Of a DNA stretch of 47,359 bases, positions 11,141 to 27,088 are shown piece by piece; position 1 is the stretch's first letter, and each line of letters starts with the position of its first letter. A program made the position numbers and the translations under genes. This DNA is from Planctomycetota bacterium (GTDB lineage Bacteria; Planctomycetota; Brocadiia; Brocadiales; Scalinduaceae). The notes beneath the pieces are model-generated. The model saw only the letters and a list, made by a program, of their open reading frames with translations, did no database searches and was not told the origin of the DNA. The DNA lies in contig JACZYU010000003.1 in assembly GCA_022570935.1 (NCBI GenBank), forward strand, positions 1 to 47,359, given 5' to 3'.

Positions 11141-11565
11141 TTCTGTATTGCGATACGTCTGCTCTTATAAAGAGATATGTGGAAGAAAAGGGTACTGAAC
11201 GTGTTGATGCTCTTTGGGAGGATTGCCAGGGTATTTCTACATCTGTGGTGGCTTTTGCCGAAGCTATATCAGCATTCAGTCGAAAACTGAGAGAAGGTAT
11301 TCTATCCAGGAAAGAATATACTAAGACAGTAAGGAAATTCAGGGATGATTATGAGCATCTAATCTTGGTTCCTGTTGATAATAATTTGAATTCTGTTATG
11401 GAGAATCTCTTCAACAGACATTCGTTAAGAGGGTTTGATGCAATTCATCTGGCTTCGGCCCTTGTCTTTACGAATTCAAAGGAAATTGATTTATTTTTTG
11501 CATGTTTTGACCATATACTGAATGAAGCAGCCATAAAAGAGGGATTAAAGGTTATCCATAATTAA
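11137..11565 (+). CDS. Toxin, VapC-type PIN-domain ribonuclease
   Basis: The 142-residue PIN-domain protein begins MILYCDTSALIKRYVEEKG, with the first catalytic Asp at residue 6. Glu42 lies in FAEAISAF and Asp101 in RGFDAIHLASAL; a further acidic residue, Asp125, is in CFDHIL. These are the metal-binding residues of VapC ribonucleases, which cut specific RNAs such as tRNA. The start is GTG within the antitoxin stop. Pairing of a Phd-type antitoxin with a PIN toxin is common. The 3' end overlaps the convergent top6A gene by 4 bases. Confidence 0.9.
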   Translation: MILYCDTSALIKRYVEEKGTERVDALWEDCQGISTSVVAFAEAISAFSRKLREGILSRKEYTKTVRKFRDDYEHLILVPVDNNLNSVMENLFNRHSLRGFDAIHLASALVFTNSKEIDLFFACFDHILNEAAIKEGLKVIHN

Positions 11566-12644
11566 GGTAAAAAGCTATCTGTCTTCTTTAGCTTTTGAGG
11601 AAGATATTTTTCAATTACATAGTTTAATCCATGTTTAGCAAGCGCCTGCTGCTCTGCCCTTACACCCATTTTTAATAGCTGATTAATTGCCTTCTGCCAT
11701 TCCTTACTCTGTTTTATAAACGGGTCGTTCTTCAAGGCGTCTTTTGCTCTCTTAATATCTACGTCTTTTAATGGATGCGTTGGGAGTTTGTAATCAATGA
11801 TATCTTGCGGTGTTATGCCAAGGTATCGTGCATTTGGTACGCAGAAATACTGGTTTATGTGTGCCGCATTTCCTGACCCCACCTTCAGGGTTCTGTATAT
11901 GTTGCTGATGCCATAAGGATCTCCATCAACAAAGACATAAACAGGGATCTTTTTCCCTTCTGATAAACGCCTGATAAATCTTCTGCATGCTCTGGTTGGA
12001 ACACCTCCCATGGAGATTAATATACAGTTTGCTTTCTTCCAGTAATTGTGTTTTACAAGCCGCTGGAACATCCCGGCAGTTTCTATTACCAGTATAAACT
12101 TTGCGTTGGTTTCGAATTTCAGATGCTCAGTTGAAATGGGAATAGAGTATGCGCCTGAGCCGAATTTAGTGCAGTCGATTTTGAGCTGCTCACCGGTATC
12201 CTGATCCTTATCTATTACTATCAGTTTTCCGGCTACATCTCCTCCCTTCTCTTCCGGGATAAAACCCAATTGCTCTCTGTTGACTTCAAACATTGCTTCA
12301 ACATCATCAATTACAGTATCTGATTCAGGTTGTTCCTCAAAACGTGCTTCGCCCCAGTTCTTGGATACATAATAGGCCTCTCTTTTTGTGGCTACATCAT
12401 CTTTTTCAAGAAGTTCCTTGGAAAGAGACATTATTCTCAGTGTCTGGGCAAATGTCTTTACGGTATTTACCGTTAAAGTGCGGGATTTTTTCTGCCCGAT
12501 AAGTTCTAAGAAACCTCTCTTTGGAGTATATTTAACATTGCTCAATGCGCGAATTGGAAAAGACATACTGGGTTTTTGTTTCTTTGTGATCTTGTCGTGA
12601 ATGGTGGAAGCAGATTCTTCTATTTTCTTTAGTGTTTTTGTCAT
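11562..12644 (-). CDS. top6A: DNA topoisomerase VI subunit A (Spo11-like)
   Basis: Topoisomerase VI is a type IIB enzyme that passes one duplex through another; subunit A makes the double-strand break. In the 360 residues, KREAYYVSK has the catalytic tyrosine (most likely Tyr92) in the winged-helix domain. The Toprim domain follows with Glu188 (VIETAGMF) and Asp240/Asp242 (FVDGDPYG) for Mg2+. Length is typical for the archaeal enzyme. It overlaps the upstream top6B stop by 4 bases (ATGA), so both subunits are made together. This enzyme is frequent in archaea and plants and rare in bacteria. Confidence 0.95.
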
Positions 12645-14236
12645 GATCTACTCCTTTCGAGGATGTCTGTCAGATTATTAATTATTTTTTGTTCCTGCCT
12701 GTCGTTTAGGTCTAATATTTCCTTTAATGCTATTCCTATATGAGGTATGTATTTCTTGATATACGATTTCTTCTTGAATTCTTCAGCCGCCCTCTTTTTT
12801 CTCTTGATAAATGTAGATAGGTGGCGCCCGCATTCCTGCAAGGCCAGTTTTATCTCTTTCTCAATCTCAGGGTAATGTGCAATGGCCTCTTTACTTTCTG
12901 ATGTAAAAGGTACCCAGACAGATGCGAGGTGTACCATCAGTAGTATCGGCCCGGAAGGGAGTGCACCGGCAGATTGTGAAAGTCCATAATTTCTCCATGA
13001 GGTGTTTATTGCTGATTCGGTAACGACGCACGCGGATTGTTGATACAGCAAAGGAACTCTATTGGCAAACCTCAGCAGTCTTATCAAGCCTTCTTCCGGT
13101 AAATCTCCCCCGTATGCCAGCCCGACCTCAATCTGAAAGGGGTTGCCTCTATATACAGATGGTGGCCGCGTAATTGATGTGAAGAAATCTGCATTGATTT
13201 GTTTTTTAAGGCCTTTTATTATGGCGTCTTCTCCAATTGGAGAGATGCAGTCTGTAGGGGGATTCATGATCTTCGTTAACTTGATGGCCTTGAAAAGTGA
13301 GTCTGCCTCCTGGACTGCGATTCTTGAAGGTCGGGCCTTTCCATTTAAACCAGCTTTTTCACAAATCTCATTTGCAACTCTTGTGCTTACCCTGGAGAAA
13401 TCATTAGTAAGGCAGGACCGGAGATTTTTTGATTTTGTGTCATGCAGCATCTTTATTAATATTCCCAGTTCAATGCCATAGGGATGTGGCTTTATCTCTT
13501 TTGGTTCGATTGGCAATTCTTTTGACGCCCTGGGATACCTTGTTTCCTTGCCTTCGGGGTTGATGTATGTTATATCAGCGTGTGGATTGGCGATGGATGT
13601 TTGTTCAATGTATCCGTCTACAGACTGCCGGCCTTTCTGGTATCTTGCTTCTAACTCAATAACTACCTTTGTGCCTCGTTTGACTTCATAATCGACTATC
13701 TCATCTTTTATAATTCGAGGTTCATTTTTTTGCGTGTCAATCACAAGACTGTAATGGTGTGCAGGTGTCTTTGGTGAAATTTTTGAAGTTATCAGTATTG
13801 GTTTGCCGGTTGTCAGCTGGCCATACATGCCTGCCGCGGATATGCCTATCCCCTGCTGCCCTCTAGACATTTTAAGCGTATGGAATTTTGAACCATAAAG
13901 TAATTTACCAAAAATCTTTGGTATGTGAGTTTTTAAAATACCGGGTCCATTATCTTCAATGGTAACTGTAAATCTATCTTCAGAATTTTTTACATGGCTT
14001 ATGTGTACTTTTATGTCAGGAAGGATTTTCGCTTCTTCACATGCATCCAGAGAGTTGTCAATTCCTTCCTTGATCGTTGTGAGCAAGGCTTTTCTGGGGT
14101 TGTCAAATCCAAGTAAGTGTCTGTTCTTTGTGAAGAATTCACTTACGGAGATTTCTCTTTGTTTTTTTGCAAGGTCTTGAGCAGTTATCCTCGGGGTGTC
14201 TCTAGTCTGTTTTTTGTTTTTCTTTGAGGCTGTCAT
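12641..14236 (-). CDS. top6B: DNA topoisomerase VI subunit B (GHKL ATPase)
   Basis: Subunit B binds ATP, dimerises and controls DNA passage. The 531-residue protein has the GHKL motifs: [14 protein letters not shown] (Glu57 and Asn61), EDNGPGI at 94-100 and the lid RGQQGIGIS at 125-133. The middle helix-two-turn-helix and the transducer domain follow, and a Lys/Arg-rich helical end ([20 protein letters not shown]). The length fits. The gene lies 15 bases after amzA and overlaps top6A, so the three appear to form one transcript. Confidence 0.95.
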
Positions 14237-14251
14237 TTCTGGTAATCTCTT

Positions 14252-14926
14252 TTAATTGGTCATTGTCCTTTTATCTTCCATGATCGTCTTGCAGTTACTG
14301 CAAAGAACAGCCCCTTTCTGATCTGTATCACTCACGTTGCTTGACAAAAACATAACGCATTTGTTATTTGTACAATGGCGAAGCCCATATGTATGTCCCA
14401 GTTCATGAACGGCTTCAATAATTATCCTTTTTTTAAACAGAGTGAAATCCTCCGGTAGATCGTAAAATTTTTGCCTAAGCCTCGTTAAGGAAATTACTGC
14501 CACCTTTTTCTTTATGACTGCTTCTCCAAAAACGAATGTACGCTCAGGTACATATAAATCTACGTCTGCTATTCCCAGTATTCTGTCATATCCTGTTAAT
14601 CCTAATTTGTGTATTCGTTTCAGAATTTTTGTTGAATGATACTGTTTTTTCTGTTTGTGATATGCATAAGCTGGATCTTCTAATTGTCTGCCAATGTCTA
14701 TTTTTACATTAAACCTATCTTCTAGCTCTTTTTGTGTGTTATGTAGGATTTCTTTGTCTATGGTTCCTATCGGGATGATACAAACTTTTTTTCTCATAGA
14801 GATATTTGATGCGTAGTTTGTTTTTGTGGCTGCATTTCCCATTAATAGTAACAGCGGTATTAGAATTGAAAATTTTCTACAGTATTTTAGAACTGATATC
14901 ATAATCTTGACAAAAACAACCGTCAT
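14252..14926 (-). CDS. amzA: Archaemetzincin-type zinc protease (family M54) with signal segment
   Basis: The 224-residue protein contains HELGHTYGLRHC (His174, Glu175, His178, His184) followed by Cys185, Cys190, Cys209 and Cys212, with a Met after the second Cys. This is the HExxHxxGxxHCx4CxMx(17-18)CxxC pattern of archaemetzincins, which bind one catalytic and one structural zinc. Unlike the usual cytoplasmic form, residues 19-34 form a hydrophobic signal-like segment, so it may act outside the cytoplasm or on a membrane. If translation began at Met44 (MRKKVCIIPIG) this segment would be lost. ATG at 14926 has no clear ribosome binding site. It is first in the operon with top6B and top6A. 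Confidence 0.88.
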   Translation of the reverse strand: MTVVFVKIMISVLKYCRKFSILIPLLLLMGNAATKTNYASNISMRKKVCIIPIGTIDKEILHNTQKELEDRFNVKIDIGRQLEDPAYAYHKQKKQYHSTKILKRIHKLGLTGYDRILGIADVDLYVPERTFVFGEAVIKKKVAVISLTRLRQKFYDLPEDFTLFKKRIIIEAVHELGHTYGLRHCTNNKCVMFLSSNVSDTDQKGAVLCSNCKTIMEDKRTMTN

Positions 14927-15975: not shown

Positions 15976-17549
<1,574 letters not shown>

Positions 17550-17678
17550 ATGGAGTTAATCGAAGTCGGTACATCTGACGTCTTTTATGTTGTTATTTGT
17601 TTTTTTGAGTGTTTGTGGGCGCTAAATCGACTGATAAGTATGCTATAAGTTGTTTTAAATAAGGCGGAAAGTGGTCAA

Positions 17679-17756
17679 GGGCCTATAGCTCAGTTGGTTT
17701 AGAGCGTTCCCCTGATAAGGGAAAGGTCAGTGGTTCGAATCCACTTAGGCCCACCA
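17679..17756 (+). tRNA. tRNA-Ile (GAT)
   Basis: The acceptor stem GGGCCTA pairs with TAGGCCC, and the anticodon stem TTCCC/GGGAA encloses CTGATAA with anticodon GAT. The T arm has GGTTCGAATCC. The CCA end is encoded. It lies in the 16S-23S spacer, its usual place. Confidence 0.97.
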
Positions 17757-17802
17757 TCCTCAGATCTATTTATAAAAGTAAAGTTAATTGATGAATTTAT
17801 CT

Positions 17803-17875
17803 GGGGGTGTAGCTCAACTGGGAGAGCGCTGCCCTTGCAAGGCAGAGGTTAGCGGTTCGATCCCGCTCATCTCCA
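17803..17875 (+). tRNA. tRNA-Ala (TGC)
   Basis: GGGGGTGTAGCTCA opens the gene. The anticodon stem CTGCC/GGCAG encloses CTTGCAA with anticodon TGC, and the T arm is AGCGG-TTCGATC-CCGCT. The acceptor stem has two G-T wobble pairs and no encoded CCA, unlike the neighbouring tRNA-Ile. Confidence 0.96.
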
Positions 17876-18004
17876 TAGTTTTTAGTAAAGAGAAGATGGT
17901 TTTGCCGTCCTCTTGTAATGAAGCAAAAGAAGTAAATCAATAGCAGTAATTGTTCTTTGGCAATAAAAGCAATTTTAAAAGCAGTATAACTACAATTAGA
18001 AATT

Positions 18005-21068
<3,064 letters not shown>

Positions 21069-21112
21069 CCTTATTATAATTGTTGTTATACTGTTAATAA
21101 TTGCTAAGAATT

Positions 21113-21223
21113 CTCCAGTGACTATAGTAGAAATAAAAAACCCGTTCCCATTCCGATCACGGTAGTTAATGTTTCTGCGCCGATGGTACTGTCTAACGAT
21201 GGGAGAGTAGGTATTGCTGGGGG
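21113..21223 (+). rRNA. rrf: 5S ribosomal RNA
   Basis: CTCCAGT at the 5' end pairs with GCTGGGG at the 3' end. CCCGTTCCCATTCCGATCAC and CGATGGTACT are the conserved internal parts. It closes the operon, 45 bases after 23S. Confidence 0.93.
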
Positions 21224-24111: not shown

Positions 24112-24186
24112 CTACTGGTTTGAAACTCAAAGAACTATTTATTATTCCACAGCCTTGCTATTAAACTAAATTGACAGGATTAGTTG

Positions 24187-25629
24187 ATGAAATATGAAGT
24201 AGTAATGGGATTGGAGACCCACGCAGAATTAGATACCGAATCTAAGCTTTTTTGTGGGTGTAGTACTAAGTTTGGTTCTGAGCCAAATACACAGACATGT
24301 CCTGTTTGCTTAGGCTTGCCGGGAGTTTTGCCGGTGATGAATAAAAAGGCGTTTGAGCATTCATTAAAGGCGGCTCTTACTTTGAATTGCGAGATAAGTA
24401 AATTTACTAACTTTGATAGAAAGAGTTATTATTATCCTGATTTACCTAAAAACTATCAAACTTCGCAAAATTATTTTAATATTGGCAATAACGGCTACGT
24501 AGATATAGTCGTAAAGGGAAAAGAGAAAAGAATCGATATACACAACGTACATTTGGAAGAGGAGGCTGGTAAGCTTATTCATCCTGAAACATCAGGTGCA
24601 AATTACAGTTTAGTTGACTTTAACAGGGCAGGTGTGCCACTCCTGGAGATAGTGACTCAACCGGATATGCGAAATGTTGAAGAAGTGGAAAGTTATATGC
24701 AGGCACTCAGGAATATATTGCTTTACATAGGTGTGTCAGACTGTAAGATGCAAGAAGGTTCTTTAAGATTCGAGGTGAGTATATCTTTACGTGAAAAGGG
24801 ATCAAATGTTCTTGGCAACAGGGTAGAAATTAAGAACCTTAATTCTATGAAGGCTGTCTTAAAAGTGCTTGCATATGAAATGTCCAGGCAAAGCAGTTTA
24901 CTCGATAAGGGTGAGAACGTGTTAATGGAAACAAGATTATGGGATGATGTTGACTCTGTAAGCAGGCGGATGCGTTCAAAAGAAGAGGCACATGACTACA
25001 GGTACTTTCCCGAACCGGATTTAGTTCCTATCTGGATTGATCAGGAATGGATCAACGAAATCCGGGCAACAATTCCGGAACTTCCTGTCGACAAGCATCA
25101 AAGATTTGTAAATGAATATTCTATTTCTGACTACGATGCAGGTATTCTGACGGAGGATAAGCATCTTGCAGACTATTTTGAGGAATGTGTAGGCTTGTCT
25201 CAGGATTCTCCAAAAGAGCTAAGTAACTGGATTATTAATGATGTACTTCGGGAGCTAAATGAACGAAAAACAAATGTCCAGGATTTTATTGTTTCACCAA
25301 AGATGCTGGTTGAATTAGTTAAGATCAAGCCAACTATTGGAAGTTCAATCGCCAAAGACGTCTTTGGCGAAATGATAAATACAGGAAGAACCGCTCCATC
25401 TATAGTTAAGGAGAAAAATTTAACACAGATAGACGATGTAAGTGAACTTAATGATATTGTAACAAAAGTTATAGAAGATAACCCTAAAGCGGCAGAAGAT
25501 TACGGCCAAGGCAAAAAAAGCGCTTTGACCTTTTTGATAGGTCAAACTATGAAAATTACCAGAGGCAAAGCAAATCCCAAGATTTTAACAAAGATTCTTA
25601 TGGAAAGATTATCTGCCGGTTCAAAGTAA
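24187..25629 (+). CDS. gatB: Aspartyl/glutamyl-tRNA amidotransferase subunit B
   Basis: GatB binds the misacylated tRNA and activates the carboxylate. ATG at 24187 is preferred over the TTG codon just before it, giving 480 residues. The N-terminal kinase-like domain has MGLETHAELDTESKLFCGC, CPVCLGLPG, FDRKSYYYPDLPKNYQTSQ and MQEGSLRFEVSIS. The C-terminal YqeY-like tRNA-binding domain starts near residue 325 and ends with the family phrase GKKSALTFLIGQTMKITRGKANP. The Cys residues for zinc are present. It is downstream of gatC and gatA. Confidence 0.96.
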   Translation: MKYEVVMGLETHAELDTESKLFCGCSTKFGSEPNTQTCPVCLGLPGVLPVMNKKAFEHSLKAALTLNCEISKFTNFDRKSYYYPDLPKNYQTSQNYFNIGNNGYVDIVVKGKEKRIDIHNVHLEEEAGKLIHPETSGANYSLVDFNRAGVPLLEIVTQPDMRNVEEVESYMQALRNILLYIGVSDCKMQEGSLRFEVSISLREKGSNVLGNRVEIKNLNSMKAVLKVLAYEMSRQSSLLDKGENVLMETRLWDDVDSVSRRMRSKEEAHDYRYFPEPDLVPIWIDQEWINEIRATIPELPVDKHQRFVNEYSISDYDAGILTEDKHLADYFEECVGLSQDSPKELSNWIINDVLRELNERKTNVQDFIVSPKMLVELVKIKPTIGSSIAKDVFGEMINTGRTAPSIVKEKNLTQIDDVSELNDIVTKVIEDNPKAAEDYGQGKKSALTFLIGQTMKITRGKANPKILTKILMERLSAGSK

Positions 25630-25642
25630 GCCTTATATACTA

Positions 25643-25843
25643 CTATGCGTCTTTTGCTTGAATGGTTTTTCTGTTATTGCCTTTTGCTCTATTTATTGCT
25701 TTATCAATTGCGTCGTAAACTGAATTACTTAACTCACCAATGAATTCTCCAGATGTATTACATTTTTTACTTTTTACATATTCTCTAACCTTACTAGCCA
25801 CGACAAGTACATCTCTTTCCTTTTTCTTTGCTTTCTTTGCCAT
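25643..25843 (-). CDS. Histone-fold DNA-binding protein (bacterial histone, DUF1931-like)
   Basis: ATG at 25843 follows GAGGAG at good spacing and gives 66 residues; a longer frame from 25912 has poorer start signals. A Lys-rich head (MAKKAKKKERD) precedes three helices: VLVVASKVREYVKSKK, then the long GEFIGELSNSVYDAIDKAIN, then RAKGNNRKTIQAKD. The RKTIQAKD end matches the RKT(I/V)xxxD loop and helix 3 of archaeal and bacterial histones. It should form dimers and bind DNA. It sits alone, convergent with gatB and divergent from proB. Confidence 0.75.
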   Translation of the reverse strand: MAKKAKKKERDVLVVASKVREYVKSKKCNTSGEFIGELSNSVYDAIDKAINRAKGNNRKTIQAKDA

Positions 25844-25945
25844 TTTTCTCTCCTCAAAACTATATAGGTTAAAAATACTTTGGGATCGTACCAAAAAAGC
25901 TAAAGAAGTCAAGCGCTTTTCTTGTAAAGAATTTGAGATAAAAAT

Positions 25946-27088
25946 TTGTTGAAAGTTATGAATATTCGAGAAGAAATACTATCCGGCGTCAATAAGATTG
26001 TAATTAAAGTCGGAACCCGAGTACTCACAAATGAGGATGGCTTCCTGGATAGGCATCAGATTATGGAATTGTCGAAGCAGATTATTAAACTTCGTTCCAG
26101 GGGCTATAGTGTAGTTGTTGTAAGTTCTGGTGCGGTCGGGGCGGGTATCAGTGCGTTAGGCTTGCAGAAAAGGCCAAACATCCTCCCTGAACTCCAGGCT
26201 GCAGCCGCAATCGGGCAGGGGAAATTAATAGAGATTTATAACGAATGTTTTAAAAAACATGGATATCATGCCGCACAACTGCTTCTTACAAGACAGGATT
26301 TCGAAGATCGTCAGAGATATTTAAATACATGTAATACATTGCACTCATTGTTAAATTTTAAGACTATTCCAATTATTAACGAGAATGATACTATATCAGT
26401 GGAAGAAATAACTTTTGGGGATAACGATATCCTGTCTGCACTGATTACAAACCTGTTACGTGCTGATTTGCTGATACTCTTGTCTTCTGTAGATGGATTA
26501 TATACCACTCCTCCAACCTCTGGTAAAAGTTGCAGCGTTTTGTCAGTTGTGGATTCAATTTCGGATGATATTAAAAAACTTGTATTTAAGCAAAAGACCA
26601 AAGAAGGTATTGGGGGCATGGAGAGCAAGCTTGAGGCTGCCGGTATTGCTACCGGTTCGGGTGAAACAGTGATAATCGCTAATGGGAGGCCGCCAGACAT
26701 TTTATCAAAAATAATGAACTATGACAATGTGGGTACATTGTTTCTTCCATATAAGAAAAAGATAGCAAGCCGTAAACGATGGATCGGTTTTACGGTAAGG
26801 CCCAAAGGAAAGATTTATATAGATGATGGTGCGTTGAATGCCTTGGTAAAGAAAGGTAAAAGTTTACTGCCATCAGGTGTGGTAAAGATTGATGGTAATT
26901 TTATTAAGGGTGATATTGTTTCAATACTTAATGTCAATGAGGACAGGGAGACAGCCAGGGGCCTTATGAACTATTCTGCCGGAGAGGTGCAGAAAATAAA
27001 AGGGCTTCGTTCTTCGTTGATAGAGAAAACTCTTGGCTATAAACCATATGATGAGATAATACATCGCGACAACATGGTTTTGTTATAA
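25946..27088 (+). CDS. proB: Glutamate 5-kinase with PUA domain
   Basis: ProB phosphorylates glutamate as the first step of proline synthesis. The 380-residue protein starts at TTG 25946; the ATG at 25958 (MNIREEILSG) is as likely. The amino-acid kinase domain has IVIKVGTRVLTN, VVVVSSGAVGAG, NENDTISVEE, GDNDILSALI and the MESKLEAAGIATGSG loop. A C-terminal PUA domain follows (from WIGFTVRPKGKIYIDDGA, about residue 272), as in the long ProB form that shows feedback control. No proA is seen next to it. Confidence 0.95.
   Translation: MLKVMNIREEILSGVNKIVIKVGTRVLTNEDGFLDRHQIMELSKQIIKLRSRGYSVVVVSSGAVGAGISALGLQKRPNILPELQAAAAIGQGKLIEIYNECFKKHGYHAAQLLLTRQDFEDRQRYLNTCNTLHSLLNFKTIPIINENDTISVEEITFGDNDILSALITNLLRADLLILLSSVDGLYTTPPTSGKSCSVLSVVDSISDDIKKLVFKQKTKEGIGGMESKLEAAGIATGSGETVIIANGRPPDILSKIMNYDNVGTLFLPYKKKIASRKRWIGFTVRPKGKIYIDDGALNALVKKGKSLLPSGVVKIDGNFIKGDIVSILNVNEDRETARGLMNYSAGEVQKIKGLRSSLIEKTLGYKPYDEIIHRDNMVLL

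Follow-up and report, generated by a model that had tools for sequence, protein, structure and literature searches.

The small gene lying between gatB and proB in this planctomycete genome raises a simple question: what kind of protein does it encode, and how would that protein act on DNA? It lies in the window, the whole stretch of 47,359 nucleotides that was analysed, which comes from a genome assembly of 2.5 Mb in 270 contigs, 82% complete. Among named loci, the nearest belong to Candidatus Scalindua (S. arabica, S. rubra, S. sediminis and others), in keeping with the original prediction of an anammox planctomycete host. The reading frame, which we call H1, starts on the minus strand with an ATG at 25843, ends its final sense codon at 25646 and stops at 25643-25645, and it encodes MAKKAKKKERDVLVVASKVREYVKSKKCNTSGEFIGELSNSVYDAIDKAINRAKGNNRKTIQAKDA. 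A GAGGAG stands 5' of the ATG, and the 66-residue gene with a strong ribosome site had thus been placed at the right coordinates and on the right strand.

Table 1. Features of the window that bear on H1 and its surroundings.
Feature	Position	Strand	Remarks
Topoisomerase VI subunit A	11562-12644	-	
Topoisomerase VI subunit B	12641-14236	-	
Complete rRNA operon (16S, two tRNAs, 23S, 5S)	15976-21222	+	
gatB, convergent neighbour of H1	24184..25629	+	Adjacency to H1 conserved
H1, FtF-type alpha3 histone gene, 66 aa	25643..25843	-	Stop codon included
H1 ribosome binding site region, GAGGAG 5' of ATG	25844..25856	-	Sequence
Sigma-70-like promoter of H1	25885..25912	-	Consensus scan and conservation of hexamers in orthologues
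proB, divergent neighbour of H1	25946..27088	+	Adjacency to H1 conserved

The signals and the setting of this gene, which is antisense to both flanking genes, are conserved. The ribosome site is AAGGAG in nearly all orthologues and GAGGAG in the window's own copy. The putative promoter (-35 TTGACT at 25912-25907, 16-bp spacer, -10 TACGAT at 25890-25885) is not above chance in a single-site consensus scan, so the call rests on its conservation: 15 orthologous upstream regions from family members keep TTGAC(T/A), a 16-bp spacer and a TATTAT-like hexamer. Promoter and ribosome site together suggest that H1 is substantially expressed. Across 59 related genomes, sorted into families f1 to f5 within the order, 26 carry an intact H1 orthologue. 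gatB adjoins H1 in all 24 loci examined and proB does so in 23 of them, in the same antisense arrangement, which spans families f1 to f4 down to ∼59% gatB identity. Ten loci of f5, probably the Kuenenia/Brocadia family, have gatB with neither proB nor H1 within 1.5 kb. Comparison with 12 family orthologues over a 54-residue core gave dN/dS values of 0.08-0.24, two further ortholog pairs being saturated at synonymous sites and their ratios not computable; where it can be computed, the ratio shows strong purifying selection.

To identify the protein we relied on sequence, profile and fold comparisons. Scans of the single sequence against Pfam, NCBIfam and PHROGs returned nothing above cut-off, and the sub-threshold matches to Dodecin, CENP-S and WcaE were discarded because the PDB sequence, profile and fold searches all agree on a histone. 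A phmmer search of the PDB ranks Leptospira perolatii HLp first (9QT0, E 3.5e-11), followed by HBb of Bdellovibrio (∼1e-6) and HTkC of Thermococcus (4e-5); a profile built from 20 H1 homologues sharpens the same order (HLp 1.1e-23, HBb 1.2e-14, HTkC 2e-12). An AlphaFold2 model, computed from a 20-row alignment, has helices at 16-25, 32-55 and 63-65 with a mean pLDDT of 83. It superposes on HLp 9QT0 at 0.7 Å over 56 columns (TM 0.95 by target length, Foldseek against the PDB), with HBb and HTkC next in rank. The wrong fold that was to overturn the original assignment therefore did not appear, and H1 is confirmed as a real gene encoding a histone-fold protein. Nor did the search for a family hit come back empty, since phmmer and profile searches find histones, with the caveat that the Pfam histone models all stay below their cut-offs; aligned family members approach PF00808 weakly (best 4e-4). 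The pseudodimeric DUF1931 identity was rejected, H1 being a single 66-residue fold with no PF09123 match; nor did PF09123 match anything in 13 genomes of the genus.

Which class of histone is it? The original prediction pointed to archaeal histones, and the C-terminal RKTIQAKD does resemble their RKTIxAxD end; on that likeness, H1 could be a nucleosomal-type histone that stacks into hypernucleosomes. The remaining evidence makes this reading hardly credible. Archaeal nucleosomal histones have an alpha3 of ∼10 residues, that of H1 is a single turn of 3 residues in the model, the profile does not match HMfA significantly (E 0.46), and nucleosomal histones match the H1 fold poorly, far behind the three structures named above. 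H1 fits better in the face-to-face (FtF) group, whose profile has interface residues R48 and N52 and whose alpha3 is cut to 3-4 residues (PMC11390915). H1 has the corresponding dimer-dimer interface residues R52, N56 and R58, and it carries the RxTxxxxD motif as R58-x-T60-xxxx-D65; the spacing of these residues equals that of R41/N45/R47/T49/D54 in the H. volcanii protein D4GZE0 (PMC11390915). All five residues are invariant across 20 diverse homologues (alignment A1), and R52 and N56 recur in most planctomycete sequences read. The truncated alpha3 and these five residues place H1 in the FtF group, and its identity as an FtF alpha3 histone, of a class already published, is well supported.

The second-best relative, HBb (Bd0055, a dimer histone; PDB 8CMP, 8FVX, 9EZZ; PMC11317129), shares with H1 the fold, the truncated alpha3 and the RKT loop, and some contacts of the HLp tetramer are not kept: HLp S52, T61 and F63 are G55, K64 and A66 in H1. 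One could therefore picture H1 as a dimer-only histone that bends DNA as HBb does, forming no ring tetramers and wrapping no DNA. We regard this as quite unlikely, since bacterial dimer histones are defined by the absence of both the interface arginine and the asparagine, which HBb lacks and which are present and invariant in the H1 family, and since another histone of the lineage, H2, is a much better match to HBb and is its counterpart there. HTkC (T. kodakarensis, an archaeal FtF histone; PDB 9F2C; PMC11390915) is also similar, with an alpha3-truncated fold at ∼1.1 Å and the RKT loop, but its sequence similarity to H1 is lower. In archaeal FtF histones the tail is generally missing (PMC11390915).

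The closest solved relative, HLp (PDB 9QT0/9QT1/9QT2; PMC12701072), provides the best guide to how H1 may act. The two proteins are of similar length (63 and 66 residues) and share the fold, the truncated alpha3, an N-terminal tail, the RxTxxxxD motif and the tetramer residues, R49/N53/R55 in HLp (PMC12701072) being R52/N56/R58 in H1. Most DNA contacts are also shared: A13, S14, K15, K17, K21, T27, G29 and T57 of HLp correspond to A16, S17, K18, R20, K24, T30, G32 and T60. About half of the HLp binding energy is carried by R59, K21, K15, S14 and K17 (PMC12701072), and four of these five have equivalents in H1 (K24, K18, S17, R20). The likeness is incomplete: H1 has Q62 and N57 in place of HLp R59 and K54, which kept persistent contact with DNA in simulation, HLp T56 is K59 (RKT where HLp has RTT), and the H1 tail is Lys-rich. 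The genomic neighbours also differ, SMC and MAP for HLp and gatB and proB for H1.

Because R52, N56, R58 and RxTxxxxD are present, a ring tetramer wrapping roughly 60 bp is the expected form, and we consider it likely that H1 is an FtF alpha3 histone of this kind, acting as one of several nucleoid proteins. By analogy with HLp, on which tetramer, wrapping and non-specific binding are modelled, chains would associate head to tail via alpha2 to give dimers, and a pair of dimers would join at two interfaces, by way of R52, N56 and R58, to complete the ring. A basic and polar band round the ring (A16, S17, K18, R20, K24, T30, G32, T60 and K59) would then, together with the Lys-rich tail, grip the DNA backbone with no sequence preference. 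FtF histones as a class are described as binding DNA and wrapping ∼50-60 bp of it, and with HLp the fragments protected from MNase measure ∼35-72 bp. The mode of DNA binding, which had been described as open, is no longer fully so, because crystal structures with DNA exist for this closest homologue.

The genomic company of H1 differs from that of HLp. The window's genome has three matches to HU/IHF (PF00216), which is present in 58 of the 59 genomes, and the lineage has a second histone, unlike Leptospira (PMC12701072). The FtF histone is therefore not the sole candidate nucleoid protein, packaging need not depend mainly on H1, and this protein would probably work beside the products of the three HU/IHF genes and of an HBb-like H2 that is at least partly encoded. 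Another reading is that H1 has kept the histone fold but serves as a local regulator or within a protein complex rather than in packaging, a change of role that is known for some proteins with this fold (PMC11390915, PMC10627809). The presence of HU/IHF, the loss of H1 in one genome of the genus (G007) and its absence from f5 are all compatible with such a role. It is nevertheless unlikely, given the net charge of +9 with a Lys-rich tail, the retention of most HLp DNA contacts, and a promoter and ribosome site that are strong and conserved.

H2 is a divergent paralogue of H1 (32-41% identical), shared by most of the Scalindua genomes and some genomes of f4 and f5. Its locus is separate from that of H1, with neighbours that we take to be rubrerythrin, peroxiredoxin and thiolase genes. 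The H2 profile gives its best match to HBb (E 8e-21; HLp, 4e-9), the FtF interface asparagine is missing, the arginine mostly so, and the N-terminal tail is acidic, in contrast to the basic tail of H1; by these sequence features H2 is classed as a putative HBb-like dimer-type histone. The AlphaFold2 model of H2 was weak (pLDDT 73, pTM 0.40) and was not used for the class. In the window's genome the first 28 residues of H2 (MSDSNNEKEILVVASKLKKHIRSTAGMS) lie at the end of contig C88 on the minus strand (L061 1-100), preceded by an AAGGAG ribosome site, and this contig-end fragment is all of H2 that was seen there. Counting this fragment, twelve genomes carry both H1 and H2. Their co-occurrence might suggest that the two form mixed oligomers, which seems very unlikely: the interface asparagine is absent from H2 and the arginine mostly so, several genomes have H1 without H2, and f5 genomes have H2 without H1. 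Distinct roles are a tentative proposal, in which Scalindua and some relatives would have a two-histone nucleoid, with a tetrameric, wrapping H1 (basic tail) and a dimeric, bending H2 (acidic tail) on top of HU/IHF. The searchable literature describes both classes, and we found in it no statement that both occur in one bacterium.

The loss mentioned above concerns a genome of the same genus (95% complete, 6% contamination). Between gatB and proB, G007 has a decayed H1 copy with internal deletions (L052 2955-3165, G007:C37), in which the C-terminal part with RKTxxxxD is gone and the promoter has drifted, and a search of this genome found no H2. Subject to assembly error, this looks like a natural loss of both histones. 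H1 is thus apparently not universally essential, one Scalindua genome having lost it.

The original prediction also noted topoisomerase VI in the window, correctly (subunits A and B span 11562-14236), and suggested a link with the histone, which did not hold up. Topoisomerase VI A is unevenly distributed across the order, being found in 17 of 59 genomes, and its association with H1 over the 59 genomes (Fisher p 2e-5) exists between clades only, because f5 lacks both: outside f5, p = 1. G007 keeps topoisomerase VI with its H1 a pseudogene. We therefore rejected topoisomerase VI as a partner of H1, the association failing within lineages. An M54 (archaemetzincin-type) peptidase gene adjoins the two subunit genes (window 11562-14926, minus strand). 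The stretch of the window that has no long open reading frames is explained by the rRNA operon.

Bacterial histones had been described as known from a few groups. For Planctomycetota, histones of the FtF and bacterial-dimer types have in fact been published (PMC11390915, PMC10627809, PMC12701072), and in an even sample of the phylum 164 of 392 genomes match the histone profile, which suggests that histones are common there rather than exotic. The FtF signature is found in most of the planctomycete sequences read; a small number, chiefly from family f61, are dimer-like. Since the FtF class, its DNA-wrapping type and its occurrence in the phylum were already in print (2023-2025), H1 is a further example of a known family and not a new kind of chromatin. 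Our literature searches found nothing on histone-fold proteins of anammox bacteria or Scalindua. New here are this count, the two-histone genomes, the HU/IHF genes alongside and the apparent double loss in one Scalindua species. The most interesting part, moderately so, is that two types of histone coexist in a single bacterium: a marine anammox genus with a conserved tetramer-type histone, mostly joined by a dimer-type histone and HU/IHF, is a natural setting in which to ask how such architectures share one chromosome, and the congener G007, apparently without either histone, serves as a comparison.

A histone tree (103 rows, 60 columns) was too poorly resolved to place the origin of H1. A Lokiarchaeota sequence (L037, 53% identical) was considered as a sign of transfer and set aside, as it sits on a long branch. 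HLp falls among the planctomycete FtF histones, grouping with L111 (support 100/92), a weak signal given the few alignment columns, which hints at a histone transfer between the phylum of Leptospira and Planctomycetota. Named phage records held no match to H1, and a 63.9 kb contig of the viral collection IMG/VR (L156 4980-5174) encodes a 64-residue FtF-type histone with the signature RxxxNxRKT....D.
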